This document shows positions 1,315-5,461 of a stretch of 33,851 bases of DNA, in pieces; positions within the stretch are counted from its first letter, which is position 1, and each line of letters begins with the position of its first letter. The notes under the pieces are model-generated. The model did not search any database, was not told the DNA's origin, and saw nothing but the letters and a program-made list of their open reading frames with translations. The stretch comes from Deltaproteobacteria bacterium. GTDB lineage: Bacteria; Desulfobacterota; Syntrophia; Syntrophales; UBA2210. The position numbers were made by a program, and so were the translations under genes. The stretch covers positions 1-33,851 of the forward strand of contig JAFDBG010000007.1 of the NCBI GenBank assembly GCA_019313385.1. The letters are read 5' to 3'.

Positions 1315-1401
1315 GCCGAAGTGGCGGAATTGGTAGACGCGCTAGGTTCAGGGTCTAGTGGGCTTAAGCCTGTCCGAGTTCAAGTCTCGGCTTCGGCACC
1401 A
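1315..1401 (+). tRNA. tRNA-Leu (anticodon CAG)
   Basis: The acceptor stem GCCGAAG (1315-1321) pairs with CTTCGGC (1391-1397), followed by discriminator A and an encoded CCA (1399-1401). The anticodon loop TTCAGGG sits in a CTAGG/TCTAG stem. A long class II variable arm and a GTTCAAGTC T-arm are present. The overall sequence resembles bacterial tRNA-Leu(CAG). A tyrosine recombinase relic starts 67 bp downstream, so the 3' end was probably used as an attachment site. Confidence 0.97.
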
Positions 1402-1414
1402 TAAAAAAAACGGG

Positions 1415-1457
1415 AGGTTAGCTGGGAAATTGGCTAACCTTTTTGTTTTATTTTTTT
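1415..1457 (+). terminator. rho-independent terminator of tRNA-Leu
   Basis: AGGTTAGC (1415-1422) pairs with GCTAACCT (1433-1440) across a 10-nt loop, followed by a T-rich tract broken by single G and A residues. A preceding A-run makes it plausible in both directions, serving the convergent integrase relic as well. Confidence 0.85.
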
Positions 1458-1467
1458 GTCTTGGTCA

Positions 1468-1830
1468 CTATTTGCGGAAAAGACCTGCATACGGTCGACC
1501 GCTGCCCCTCAGATCACCTTCGTCAATGGTATTGTACCTATCGAATGTCGACCTTGTCGAATGACCCGTGATCTCCATAATGACGGATTCAGGAACACTG
1601 GCCTTCCTCATATTAGTATTGAATGTATGGCGGAGGTCATGGAAGACAAATCCGCCTTTCCCTTCCTGGTCATAAGTAATTTTCGCGCTCTTACCAGCCC
1701 TGTTCTAAGGTCTGTAATCGGCTTTCCTTTATATAGGTTAAACACATGGTTGTTATAGATGGCCCTTGGGATGCTCTGGAGCGTGTCATACAGTCCGTCA
1801 GAGATAGGGATGGGGCGTTCAATGCTTTTA
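1468..1830 (-). pseudogene. tyrosine recombinase (phage integrase) C-terminal relic
   Basis: The minus strand encodes an open stretch with integrase catalytic landmarks: FHDLRHTFNTNM (box II HxxR), EITGHSTRST (the second His region) and FDRYNTI with the nucleophilic Tyr, ending at a stop at 1468-1470. Upstream it reads YNNHVF..YKGKPITDLRTGLVRAR, typical of the region before box II. The box I Arg region, the arm-binding domain and any start codon are missing. Similarity fades around 1820-1830, where a GC-rich palindrome begins. The 3' end lies 67 bp from the tRNA-Leu CCA, as expected for an integrase beside its attachment site. It is inactive as it stands and no matching second att copy is in the window. 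Confidence 0.85.
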
Positions 1831-1908: not shown

Positions 1909-1937
1909 TTGACACACAAGACCGTTTTTCTTATACT
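1909..1937 (+). promoter_or_regulatory. promoter of the AMIN/PilZ/MinD operon
   Basis: A perfect -35 TTGACA (1909-1914), a 17-bp spacer and a -10 TATACT (1932-1937; one mismatch to TATAAT) stand about 50 bp upstream of the first gene. It is one of the two best sigma-70 promoters seen in the window. Confidence 0.75.
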
Positions 1938-1994
1938 CTTTTCGTAAAAAGAGAAATTCCTTTAAGATTTTTACAGAGACGGATGGGGTCACAG

Positions 1995-2867
1995 ATGAGA
2001 TCTTTTAGTAGGGCATGGGTAATATTGGCAGTTTGTATAGCAATCTGTTGTGGTGTGACCACGGTGGCGAGCGCTTCCCTTCTTCGGGACGTAAGAGTAG
2101 GAGAACATGAGGATTTTACCAGGCTGGTATTTGAGTTTGACAGCCCCGCGCGATATTCGCCACCGGTACTCAAAGACAAAGACACCATTGCGGTGACGTT
2201 TCTCAAAAGCAAAACGCCAGACACTCTAACCCGCCGCAATCTGCAGAGAAGCACGAGACATTTCAATACCGTTACATTCGAACAGCGGGGATCCGATTTG
2301 ACTGTACACGTGACTGTAACACCCCCTCATTTCAAGATTAAGGCTTTCTCCTTGTTGAAACCATCTCGCGTAGTGATCGACGTGCACTGGCTTGATGCGC
2401 CGCTCCAGACAACAGTCGCACCGCCGCCGGTTCCTCTCATGCCTGAGAAGACAGAACCGAAGCGCACGAAGAAGGTCACAGCATCACCGAAGCCACAAAA
2501 GGAAGACGTGCCGGTAATGATAACGCCTGAAAAGATAGCGAAAATCCCGGCGGTATCTTTAACGAGGCCGGATAAGGTAGCTGTTTCCGGGCCTTCGCAA
2601 ACTACGCTACCGGGCACCATACAACTCGCGCAGGCGACACTGCGATACAGCAGATTGCAACTCTATCTCATGGTGGTGCTTATTGCCTTGAATATAATAG
2701 TCATCATTATTTTTACAGTCATACTCTGGTTCTGCTTGCGAAAAATTGAGTTTCCCAAATATGGTGTAACCAATGAGATTGCAGATGCTTTTGCAGTGCA
2801 GGACTCCACTGCGGTGTCCATAGATAGCGAGATTAGAAAGAAATTCCAAAAATACGAAGTGTTATGA
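1995..2867 (+). CDS. AMIN-domain bitopic membrane protein
   Basis: 290 residues from the chosen ATG, which follows a GGATGGGG-like ribosome binding site and directly begins a signal-like segment. A hydrophobic N-terminus (about 7-28, ending ASA) precedes an AMIN-type beta domain (about 30-125: VRVGEHEDFTRLVFEF, then a RVVIDV strand). A Pro/Lys-rich linker follows, then one strong transmembrane helix (about 222-246) and a tail of about 45 residues. AMIN domains occur in AmiC and PilQ and localise proteins to septal or polar peptidoglycan. The likely topology is a periplasmic AMIN domain with a cytoplasmic tail, linking the envelope to the cytosolic genes downstream. An in-frame ATG at 1983 is possible. 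The open frame extends back to 1746 through the integrase relic, but that part is not credible coding sequence. First gene of the operon. Confidence 0.8.
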   Translation: MRSFSRAWVILAVCIAICCGVTTVASASLLRDVRVGEHEDFTRLVFEFDSPARYSPPVLKDKDTIAVTFLKSKTPDTLTRRNLQRSTRHFNTVTFEQRGSDLTVHVTVTPPHFKIKAFSLLKPSRVVIDVHWLDAPLQTTVAPPPVPLMPEKTEPKRTKKVTASPKPQKEDVPVMITPEKIAKIPAVSLTRPDKVAVSGPSQTTLPGTIQLAQATLRYSRLQLYLMVVLIALNIIVIIIFTVILWFCLRKIEFPKYGVTNEIADAFAVQDSTAVSIDSEIRKKFQKYEVL

Positions 2868-2880
2868 TTTGGTAATCCTT

Positions 2881-3192
2881 ATGGACGATGAACTTCATCC
2901 CGAACTGAATATAGGCCTTTCTGAAGAGGAGCGGGACGATCTCGAAACTCTTATTAAATCTCTTCGGGAAGACAAGCATGCAACGGGTCCTGACGTATCG
3001 CTTGACGAATTCCGCCGGTATGTCGAAACGATGGTAGAAAATGTCGTTTGTCTTTCCGATATGATGCTGAAATATGATGACAGGATAAAGATGCTTTATG
3101 AGATCTTAAGGCTCTCCCATAAAAAGAGTGAGGCCATAAACAACCGTATTACGGCCATCACAGAATACTTGACAGGCAAAAAGAGTGTGTGA
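2881..3192 (+). CDS. small acidic helical protein, unknown function
   Basis: 103 residues from the ATG at 2881 (MDDELHPELN); an in-frame TTG at 2869 is a less likely start. It is rich in Asp, Glu and Lys and predicted mostly helical, with heptad-like hydrophobics in the second half (MMLKYDDRIKMLYEILRL) suggesting a coiled coil or helical hairpin. No signal or membrane segment. It lies 13 bp after the AMIN gene and its stop overlaps the next start (GTGA), so co-translation is likely. I do not recognise the family; a scaffold or adaptor for the neighbouring PilZ and MinD-like proteins is a guess. Confidence 0.75.
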   Translation: MDDELHPELNIGLSEEERDDLETLIKSLREDKHATGPDVSLDEFRRYVETMVENVVCLSDMMLKYDDRIKMLYEILRLSHKKSEAINNRITAITEYLTGKKSV

Positions 3193-4382
3193 ACAGGGTG
3201 CGTATGTTGGACGAGCTGACTGAAAAAAGTAATGACGTTGTGAACAGTGTCTTAGATGGATCACGTACCATCGACACGCCGGAGGAGTTCAAAGAAATTA
3301 TTGAAACCGATCCGGAAAATCCTTCGCTTTTGCTTGCCTACGGAGATTCTCTCGTACGCGGCACAATGTTCGATGAAGCGGCGCGCGCGTACAAAAAGTC
3401 GGCAGGCCTTTTCGTAAAATCGGGAGCCATTGTACAGGCAATGCTCTCAAAGATCCTCCAGTGGGGTGTAGGCAAGGTTTCGGAAAGGGAATGCCGGTCG
3501 ATTTACAGAGCACTGCGTGATATCAAATCCGAAGAGATTCCTTCCCTTCACTTTTTCGCAAGAATGTCCTATTCAGAACTCATTGCCGTAATGGAAGAAT
3601 TGGAGCAGGTTCAATTTTCTTCAGGTCAGGTCCTCAGGGAACCGGACGATCCCGAGTTCAGCATTTTTTTTATCGCCTCGGGTCTCTTGGGTGAGAACGT
3701 CAATTCTCATTCAAGCACAGAGGAATCGGAACCGTTCACGGCGACCTTGACTGAAAACATGTTTTTTGGAGATATTTACCCATTTGAGGAAGAGAACCTT
3801 TCACCATCCCGCATTGAAACAATTACCGATGTTCGACTGCTAAGATTCTCAAAGCCGGATGTCATGCGCGTGTGCCGAAAACACCCGAATATCATATTTC
3901 TGATAATGGAACTCTGTCAGACTCGCCGCGGATCCGAGTCGCAACGATATTCACCTCTTGTCAGAGCTGCCACCAGATATCAGCTTCAGACAAAAGTAAT
4001 CCTGAAGATTCTCCCGGACGAAAAAAATGAAAGCCCGTTTGTACTAAAGTGTATATTGGAAGACGTATCAAAAAGCGGTGCCTGCCTCAATCTCGGCGAA
4101 AAATACTGGACCGGTTCATCTGCCGATCTGGTAGGGAAAAGGGCAAAGATGCTGATCAGTGTTCCCAAGGCATCCATCAGTTTTGAAGCTACGGGAAATA
4201 TCATGTGGAAAAGAGAGGTGCCTCATGATGAAACAACGCACATCCTTGTGGGCATTCAATTTGTTCAGATGGCTGAGGACGATTTCAACTTCCTTAAAAA
4301 ATATTGTTATGTGGGCGACGGCGAGCAAAATATGATATACGGCCTGTGGGAATCCTATGTAAAGAAAGAACCTTACCGATGA
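3189..4382 (+). CDS. cNMP-binding-like / PilZ domain protein
   Basis: 397 residues from a GTG overlapping the previous stop. An N-terminal helical, TPR-like segment (about 25-115) is followed by a cyclic-nucleotide-binding-like jelly roll (about 120-235: SSGQVLREPDDPEFSIFFIA, then FFGDIYPF and a LLRFSKPDV strand) and a C-terminal PilZ-type domain (about 258-385: RYQLQTKV.., EDVSKSGACLNL, ILVGIQFVQM). PilZ domains usually bind c-di-GMP through RxxxR and D/NxSxxG; here DVSKSG matches the second motif, while the RxxxR is not clearly conserved (RAATRYQLQTK). The phosphate-binding cassette of the cNMP domain also looks degenerate, so ligand binding is uncertain. Predicted cytosolic sensor or adaptor, 18 bp before the MinD-like gene. 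Confidence 0.8.
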   Translation: MNRVRMLDELTEKSNDVVNSVLDGSRTIDTPEEFKEIIETDPENPSLLLAYGDSLVRGTMFDEAARAYKKSAGLFVKSGAIVQAMLSKILQWGVGKVSERECRSIYRALRDIKSEEIPSLHFFARMSYSELIAVMEELEQVQFSSGQVLREPDDPEFSIFFIASGLLGENVNSHSSTEESEPFTATLTENMFFGDIYPFEEENLSPSRIETITDVRLLRFSKPDVMRVCRKHPNIIFLIMELCQTRRGSESQRYSPLVRAATRYQLQTKVILKILPDEKNESPFVLKCILEDVSKSGACLNLGEKYWTGSSADLVGKRAKMLISVPKASISFEATGNIMWKREVPHDETTHILVGIQFVQMAEDDFNFLKKYCYVGDGEQNMIYGLWESYVKKEPYR

Positions 4383-4400
4383 GCTAATGGAAGATACCGA

Positions 4401-5324
4401 ATGGAAGAGGAAAGGAAACTACAGATAGACGCGCACCCTCAGATATGGGCTGTCGGCGGAGGGAAAGGCGGAGTTGGCAAGAGTGTGATAAGCGTCTTGC
4501 TGGCCTTCTGGTTGACACGTATGGGGAAACGTACCATTTTGATCGACCTTGATCTCGGCGGAGCCAATATTCATACCCTTATGGGGATTAAAAGTCCGCC
4601 CAAGACGCTGAATGATTTCGTCACCAGAAGACTCGACTCACTCGAAGAAGTATGTATCGAGACGGATGTCGAAAACCTCCGCCTTATCTGCGGTGCCAGC
4701 GATATCCTCACGCTGAGCAATCCCCATGTGGCCCATAAAATCAAAATTATTAACCACGTCAGTAAACTGGATGCCGACTATGTCGTGCTGGACCTCGGGG
4801 CAGGCACTTCATTCAACGTACTCGACTTTTTCCTTGCTGCCGAGAAAAAAATTGTAGTGATGACGCCGCAGCCGACGGCAATTCAGAATGCCTATTCATT
4901 TGTGAGAAATGTGGTGTACCGGAGGATAAGCAGGCTTGCCAGCCAGCAACCACCCCTTCAGGCAATGATAAAGAGTGCAATGGACGAGAACAACGAATTG
5001 AGAGTGAGAACGATCCGAGACCTTCTGCAGGCGGTAGAAGACATCAGAGGCAATGAGGTAATGGAAACGCTCCGTGGAGAGATTGAAGCAATCAGGCCCA
5101 CTGTGATCACCAATATGGTAACGAACAACAACGATAAAAATGCCGGACGGGTGATACAGCTCGTGTCGGAAAAATATCTGATGGTACATCCCCGCAATCT
5201 CGATAGTGTGGCATATGATAAACAGATAAATCAGATGGTTTCCAGTATGGTGCCGATTACCACTCTGGGACAATCGAGCGATGCCTTTGCGAATCTCTAT
5301 GATATTACTATGAAATTGCTCTGA
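4401..5324 (+). CDS. MinD/ParA family ATPase (FlhG-like)
   Basis: 307 residues. The deviant Walker A GGKGGVGKS (about 20-28) is followed by LIDLDLGGANIHTLMG and a Walker B-like VVLDLGAG, as in MinD/FlhG ATPases that dimerise on the membrane to position flagella, pili or division sites. The C-terminus lacks an obvious long amphipathic membrane-targeting helix, so recruitment may depend on the AMIN membrane protein or the PilZ protein encoded upstream. No flagellar genes (flhF, fliA) are adjacent, so a flagellar role is not supported by context. Its stop overlaps the start of a 45-codon ORF (TGATG). Confidence 0.9.
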   Translation: MEEERKLQIDAHPQIWAVGGGKGGVGKSVISVLLAFWLTRMGKRTILIDLDLGGANIHTLMGIKSPPKTLNDFVTRRLDSLEEVCIETDVENLRLICGASDILTLSNPHVAHKIKIINHVSKLDADYVVLDLGAGTSFNVLDFFLAAEKKIVVMTPQPTAIQNAYSFVRNVVYRRISRLASQQPPLQAMIKSAMDENNELRVRTIRDLLQAVEDIRGNEVMETLRGEIEAIRPTVITNMVTNNNDKNAGRVIQLVSEKYLMVHPRNLDSVAYDKQINQMVSSMVPITTLGQSSDAFANLYDITMKLL

Positions 5325-5461
5325 TGGATCTCGTGGGGGGAGAAGTAGACGGCAAAGACGGGCTGAAGGAACACAATTTGCTGACAGAGGAATTAATAAT
5401 GTCATGCTTGGATTGTTCCAAGGCACCTTTGAACGATTCGAACACGCCTCATGACGATTAG
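5324..5461 (+). CDS. 45-residue CxxC microprotein
   Basis: The ATG overlaps the stop of the MinD-like gene (TGATG), the classical translational-coupling arrangement. The product begins MDLVGGEVDGKDGL and contains a CLDC motif near residues 28-31 before an Asp/Asn-rich tail. It is hydrophilic with no membrane segment. The CxxC could bind a metal or be redox-active as a dimer, but two Cys alone are weak evidence. Translation is inferred from the overlap; conservation in relatives would decide it. Confidence 0.45.
   Translation: MDLVGGEVDGKDGLKEHNLLTEELIMSCLDCSKAPLNDSNTPHDD

Follow-up and report, generated by a model that had tools for sequence, protein, structure and literature searches.

A four-gene cassette joining an AMIN anchor, a PilZ sensor and a MinD/FlhG-type ATPase: a candidate envelope-linked positioning module of Syntrophales/Desulfobacterales-type bacteria

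Background

Among the closest described counterparts of the system considered here are HubP and FimV, peptidoglycan-binding landmarks with a single transmembrane (TM) segment that count FlhF and FlhG among their clients (PMC12918733). AMIN domains also bind peptidoglycan and are required for the septal or polar recruitment of PilQ (PMC5285504, PMC10653833). Here we analyze a 33,851-nucleotide stretch of DNA from a deltaproteobacterium of the order Syntrophales (GenBank assembly GCA_019313385.1, contig JAFDBG010000007.1, positions 1 to 33,851 of the forward strand; hereafter, the window), in which four adjoining genes encode an AMIN-domain protein, a small coiled-coil-type protein, a fusion of TPR-like, cNMP-fold and PilZ parts, and a MinD/FlhG-type ATPase. 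The order of these genes recurs in about 38 genomes, and we are inclined to think that together they encode an envelope-linked positioning module.

The cassette shares with HubP/FimV a predicted peptidoglycan-binding periplasmic domain, one TM segment, a cytosolic part, a MinD/FlhG-type ATPase as a putative client, and links to TPR and to cyclic di-GMP (c-di-GMP) (PMC12918733). It differs in having AMIN instead of LysM and a far shorter tail (about 45 residues, as against hundreds), in placing its TPR-like helices on a soluble protein of their own, where they are fused to PilZ, and in its ATPase, which lies outside the FlhG clade, is encoded in the same operon, and occurs in several non-flagellate carriers. 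With neither LysM nor the C-terminal FimV TPR domain, the cassette is an analogue of HubP/FimV and not a member of that family.

The other relevant systems each overlap with the cassette in one part. In PilQ of the type IV pili (T4P) of Pseudomonas and Myxococcus (T4aP), AMIN serves as the wall-reading part, and the cassette profile matches the PilQ AMIN structure; the cassette domain, however, is carried by a bitopic inner-membrane protein without a secretin. MinCDE shares the fold of the MinD-type deviant-Walker ATPase, but the nine carriers searched are without MinC, and the cassette ATPase scores far below the MinD model cut-off and is closer to FleN. FlhG/FleN are the closest solved relatives of the ATPase; yet, the match covers the N-terminal half, the FlhG proteins of the same class form a separate clade, and the host is without FlhF. 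Finally, BcsRQE likewise combines a MinD-like ATPase with a c-di-GMP sensor. The sensor domain of BcsE is GIL, whereas that of the cassette is PilZ; moreover, no synthase is present at the cassette, and the AMIN anchor is absent from Bcs. The cassette is neither a Min system nor a flagellar FlhG system.

The open-access literature yielded no paper that combines the AMIN domain, PilZ and MinD; subscription papers lie outside that search, so that this absence is not proof of novelty. Broader searches returned papers on HubP/FimV, PilQ, Bcs and ParA/MinD, and none on the four-gene cassette, which, within the literature searched, seems to be an undescribed bacterial module.

Results

A conserved four-gene unit

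In the window, the four genes lie on the forward strand in the order AMIN protein (1983..2867), small protein (2881..3192), TPR-like/cNMP-fold/PilZ protein (3189..4382) and ATPase (4401..5324), with spacings of 13, -4 and 18 nucleotides, which bears out the overlapping or close gene starts noted in a previous reading of the locus from sequence alone (hereafter, the sequence-only reading). The AMIN, cNMP/PilZ and MinD-like ATPase domains named in that reading all match Pfam above the gathering scores, and synteny in relatives, which it had set as a test, is indeed found: the AMIN-small-cNMP/PilZ-MinD order is kept across several families and orders.

In a class sample of 155 genomes, all from one order, the fused cNMP/PilZ protein is present in 8 genomes, the small protein in those 8 and in G049, and the four-gene order in 9 genomes spread over five families; a tenth match to the small protein (G044, 6e-4), within a 655-residue frame, is probably due to chance. 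A first contig scan with a single protein as the query found nothing; when GTDB species genomes were searched with the ATPase alignment as the query, 80 loci were recovered. Of these, 37 hold a cNMP/PilZ gene, always with the ATPase gene directly 3' of it; the small gene stands 5' of the cNMP/PilZ gene in all 35 assessable loci, and the AMIN gene 5' of the small gene in 32 of the 33 loci with sufficient upstream sequence. All 37 cassette loci belong to Syntrophales/Desulfobacterales-type bacteria (sulfate-reducing and syntrophic relatives), and the hosts include two isolates, Desulfosarcina widdelii PP31 and D. alkanivorans PL12, whose chromosomes are complete. The distribution is patchy, with the small protein found in 2 of the 390 genomes of a phylum-wide sample (only G000 and G021).

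The flanks, where gene names were read from sequence unless tested against Pfam, are metabolic in the window; G007 has a DnaJ-type gene there, one family (f15) has malic-enzyme-like and NlpC/P60-type genes, and G049 has the genes for valyl-tRNA synthetase and for DNA polymerase I. The flanking genes thus differ between families, and the four genes, therefore, form a unit. At one locus (L081:4749-8101), the fused cNMP/PilZ gene is present twice, the additional copy being diverged and standing directly after the ATPase gene. Upstream of the small gene (L059/L066), the next gene in G143 is a lytic-transglycosylase-like gene on the opposite strand, at the position expected for the AMIN gene; in G140, such a gene likewise stands upstream of AMIN.

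The AMIN anchor and the small protein

The AMIN protein consists of a signal-like N-terminus, the AMIN domain (Pfam AMIN-like, 4.2e-6; AMIN, 2.5e-4), a proline-rich linker, one TM segment and a tail; in profile searches, it matches the structures of AmiC and of Myxococcus xanthus PilQ. In the window protein, the TM segment, at residues about 230-248, is followed by a 46-residue tail, predicted to be cytosolic, that ends in a conserved helix, IDSEIRKKFQKY. All 31 AMIN proteins have a variable linker, then one strong TM segment, usually with a positively charged stretch after it, and a tail some 45 residues long. Near the C-terminus, the motif I[DN]xx[IL]x(2-3)[LFMI]xx[YHFLMKI] is present, as a strict pattern, in 26 of the 31; in three near-variants (L075, L079, L080), ID is replaced by LD, and, of the remaining tails, one is masked (L086) and one ends early (L077). 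A tail that is conserved next to a variable linker suggests a peptide with a role in docking or activation.

The 103-residue small protein, modeled by AlphaFold with a pLDDT of 80, has a short N-terminal helix (residues 15-32) with the motif GLSxEExxDLExxI, a linker and a 58-residue helix of the coiled-coil type. Pfam and NCBIfam assign it to no family, Foldseek finds no match, and its sequence matches in the PDB were dismissed as coiled-coil noise; it is, accordingly, a protein family without known relatives.

The fused TPR-like/cNMP-fold/PilZ sensor

The fused protein matches Pfam cNMP_binding (8.3e-8) and PilZ (1.3e-6). Its AlphaFold model (mean pLDDT 79.5, pTM 0.59) comprises a TPR-like helical part, a beta-roll of the cyclic-nucleotide-binding domain (CNBD) type and a PilZ barrel with helices; given the pTM, the relative placement of the domains is uncertain. 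Foldseek matches the model to CNBDs with an E-value of about 1e-8, which identifies the fold as cyclic-nucleotide-binding. In 37 relatives, the c-di-GMP signature of PilZ, which reads RxxxR and DxSxxG in the window and [D/N]xSxxG in the family, is complete (RxxxR, D/N, S and G in 37/37 each). In the same relatives, the phosphate-binding arginine of the CNBD (the position of CAP R82, aligned by hand in the FFGDIYP... segment) is replaced by serine in most and otherwise by cysteine, alanine or another residue, which makes cAMP binding doubtful. With the PilZ signature complete and the CNBD arginine replaced, c-di-GMP is the expected ligand, and GGDEF proteins are encoded in all 9 cassette carriers of the class.

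Weak TPR-cNMP matches from the phylum search were rejected as cassette relatives because they belong to a different gene, one that adjoins lolC/lolD. In several genomes of the phylum (L149, L157, L160; loci of about 3.7 kb), a lolC-like and a lolD-like gene flank one for a TPR-like protein that carries two domains of the cNMP type, an arrangement that suggests a CNBD protein with a tie to lipoprotein export.

The ATPase and a wider PilZ-ATPase pair

The 307-residue ATPase matches ParA/CbiA/AAA_31 in Pfam (1.9e-17 and weaker). The deviant Walker A motif KGGxGKS, with both the signature and the Walker lysines, and the Walker A' and B aspartates are intact in 34 of 34 sequences, so that, by its residues, the protein has all catalytic signature positions of the dimerizing MinD/ParA family. 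A PDB profile search ranks FleN/FlhG first (2e-36), with a match limited to residues 10-169, the N-terminal half, and MinD later (4e-17 to 4e-14); against the MinD model TIGR01968, the ATPase scores 58.4 bits, below the cut-off of 212.9. In the tree, the cassette ATPases (21 rows) form a clade of their own (100/100), apart from the FlhF-adjacent FlhG of the same class (100/100).

This ATPase subfamily also occurs in a simpler arrangement, more widespread than the four-gene cassette. All 12 checked loci of stand-alone PilZ genes, which were recovered in the phylum search with the fused protein by PilZ similarity alone, adjoin the same ATPase subfamily, and a thirteenth pair is visible in L151. 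From the ATPase side, further pairs are found in L102-L104 (with Pfam confirmation of PilZ for L104), and L105, L107, L109 and L110 have PilZ-like partners with weaker matches (8e-4 to 5e-5). The ATPases of these pairs are the sister clade of the cassette ATPases (93/81 jointly; pair clade, 97/91). From this, we infer that the PilZ-ATPase pair came first and later gained the TPR/cNMP-fold parts, through fusion, as well as the small protein and the AMIN anchor. A defense-system library gave a weak P-loop match and nothing else, and this lead was rejected. In three Myxococcota-type loci (L133, L140, L141), distant relatives of the ATPase form the N-terminal domain of very long open reading frames of about 960 to 1530 residues.

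Host genomes

MinC_C is found in none of the 9 carriers of the class, with positive controls, and neither FlhF nor flagellin in G000, G007 and G021, all at least 93% complete; some other carriers possess both FlhF and flagella. The window's host is without MinC, FlhF and flagellin and has GGDEF proteins and PilT. A correlation of the cassette with flagella was rejected, FlhF being present in 57 of the 155 genomes, in some carriers but not in others. PilT is over the cut-off in 146 of the 155 genomes and strong in 9/9 carriers; being near-universal, it is uninformative on a correlation with T4P. PilQ-sized AMIN proteins, represented in the host genome by a 631-residue frame, occur in carriers and non-carriers alike.

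As stated in the sequence-only reading, no flagellar, pilus or division genes were found near the cassette in the window. Elsewhere, motility-type neighbors do occur. In ten Desulfosarcina-type loci (L106:7470-10428 and nine similar ones), a module that comprises a roadblock/LC7 protein, an MglA-like GTPase of the Ras/Arf type and a third, unassigned protein stands a few kilobases downstream of the cassette, with a PilZ protein also nearby in L106; in the L070/L083 group, a T2SSE/MshEN (PilB/GspE-type) ATPase gene lies downstream. Because the MglA/roadblock module is confined to these ten loci and found in none of the class's carriers, it was rejected as a general partner.

Discussion

The interpretation that we judge a little better than even is that the four genes encode a single envelope-linked positioning module. 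The envelope-linked system proposed in the sequence-only reading gains from the conserved synteny, the full PilZ signature, the intact ATPase, and the TM segment and tail of the AMIN protein, and loses its fifth gene. Under this scheme, in which we infer the peptidoglycan binding, c-di-GMP binding, interactions and localization of the cassette proteins, the AMIN domain would recognize septal or polar peptidoglycan and become an inner-membrane landmark; its tail helix would recruit or stimulate the ATPase, either by itself or with the coiled-coil small protein as a bridge; and the TPR/cNMP-fold/PilZ protein would bind c-di-GMP and gate the ATPase cycle. A client could be docked by the TPR-like part of the fused protein or held by the ATPase, such that the module, responding to c-di-GMP, would place or license an envelope machine at the division site or a cell pole. 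As the client, T4P are a plausible best guess. More tentatively, and with a likelihood that we put somewhat short of even, the cassette might represent an undescribed family of c-di-GMP-gated MinD-type ATPases, in which the ancestral PilZ-ATPase pair gave rise, in Syntrophales/Desulfobacterales, to a four-protein, wall-reading landmark that brings an envelope machine to its place at the pole or septum, an independently arisen analogue of HubP/FimV-FlhG.

Several observations weigh against a positioning module. The cytosolic tail of the AMIN protein is short compared to the long cytosolic part of HubP/FimV; the C-terminal helix of the ATPase is weakly amphipathic, so that membrane targeting is uncertain; and one locus (G143/L066) has the small, cNMP/PilZ and ATPase genes without an AMIN gene. 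Furthermore, the cassette is rare (9/155) while T4P are nearly universal in the class, and hence its presence does not track T4P, and the MglA-like and PilB-like neighbors are restricted to some lineages, the MglA-like gene being absent from all carriers of the window's class. These last points bear most directly on a more specific version of the module, namely, an accessory for the localization of T4P or a gliding apparatus, with client genes elsewhere and the AMIN anchor parking the T4P machine at the pole. The recruitment of T4P machines by AMIN domains in other bacteria, the strong PilT in all carriers of the class, and the T2SSE/MshEN and MglA-like neighbors all favor this version, but, with those neighbors lineage-specific and the cassette missing from most T4P-bearing genomes of the class, we consider it rather unlikely.

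The remaining alternatives dispense with positioning. The cassette could be a secretion regulator similar to BcsR-BcsQ-BcsE, in which the ATPase and the c-di-GMP sensor, at the inner membrane, control whether an exporter of polysaccharide or protein is active or assembled, and not where it lies. BcsQ is a MinD-like ATPase that works with the c-di-GMP sensor BcsE, and the PilZ-ATPase pair recurs without any AMIN anchor; however, none of the examined loci has a linked gene for a synthase or an exporter, the matches to the BcsQ families are weak (TIGR03371, 18.9 bits, 8e-4, with a cut-off of 157.85; Pfam CBP_BcsQ, 0.028), and the AMIN wall anchor is left unexplained, all of which makes such a regulator improbable. 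Still more doubtful, to our mind, is an anti-activator of the FleN/FlhG type, whereby the ATPase would titrate a transcription regulator in response to c-di-GMP, with the AMIN protein as an envelope-stress input: FleN is an anti-activator, and FleN/FlhG are the closest solved relatives of the ATPase, but the separate clade of the same-class FlhG, the lack of a linked transcription regulator, and the three carriers without FlhF or flagellin (G000, G007, G021) speak otherwise. As for a chance run of unrelated housekeeping genes, the ordinary metabolic genes that flank the cassette might hint at one, but in 38 genomes the four genes keep their order, with starts that overlap or lie close together, between flanks that vary, which refutes it and leaves it a negligible probability.

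If the positioning module is real, septal or polar wall recognition, c-di-GMP signaling and ParA/MinD positioning, which are usually studied apart, are joined in a single compact operon, in anaerobes whose cell polarity has hardly been studied. The cassette also defines a new ATPase clade, along with the wider PilZ-ATPase pair, and could be tested directly, either in Desulfosarcina species that are in culture or through reconstitution in a heterologous host.

Surroundings of the cassette

The strong promoter of the sequence-only reading is present as a sigma-70-like TTGACA-17-TATACT (1909..1937, forward strand) that matches the consensus at 11 of 12 positions and is the best in the region; the search returned 8 matches with 5.9 expected, so that the match count itself is without enrichment. 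That reading had placed five genes behind this promoter. Four of them recur in order, whereas the fifth, a 45-residue 'CxxC' open reading frame (5324..5461, forward strand), matched only itself in a tblastn search over every related locus and was excluded from the cassette for lack of homologues there. Farther upstream (window 1315-1760), a tRNA-Leu gene is followed by the truncated C-terminus of a tyrosine recombinase on the minus strand (HDLRHTFNTNMRKASVPESVIMEITGHSTRSTFDRYN), left over from an element that had integrated just upstream of the operon. Between this remnant and the promoter, at 1834-1857, lies a GC-rich palindrome of 10 pairs, TACCCCGCTGCTTGCGGCGGGGTA, that resembles either a REP-type repeat or a terminator that lacks a clear T tract.

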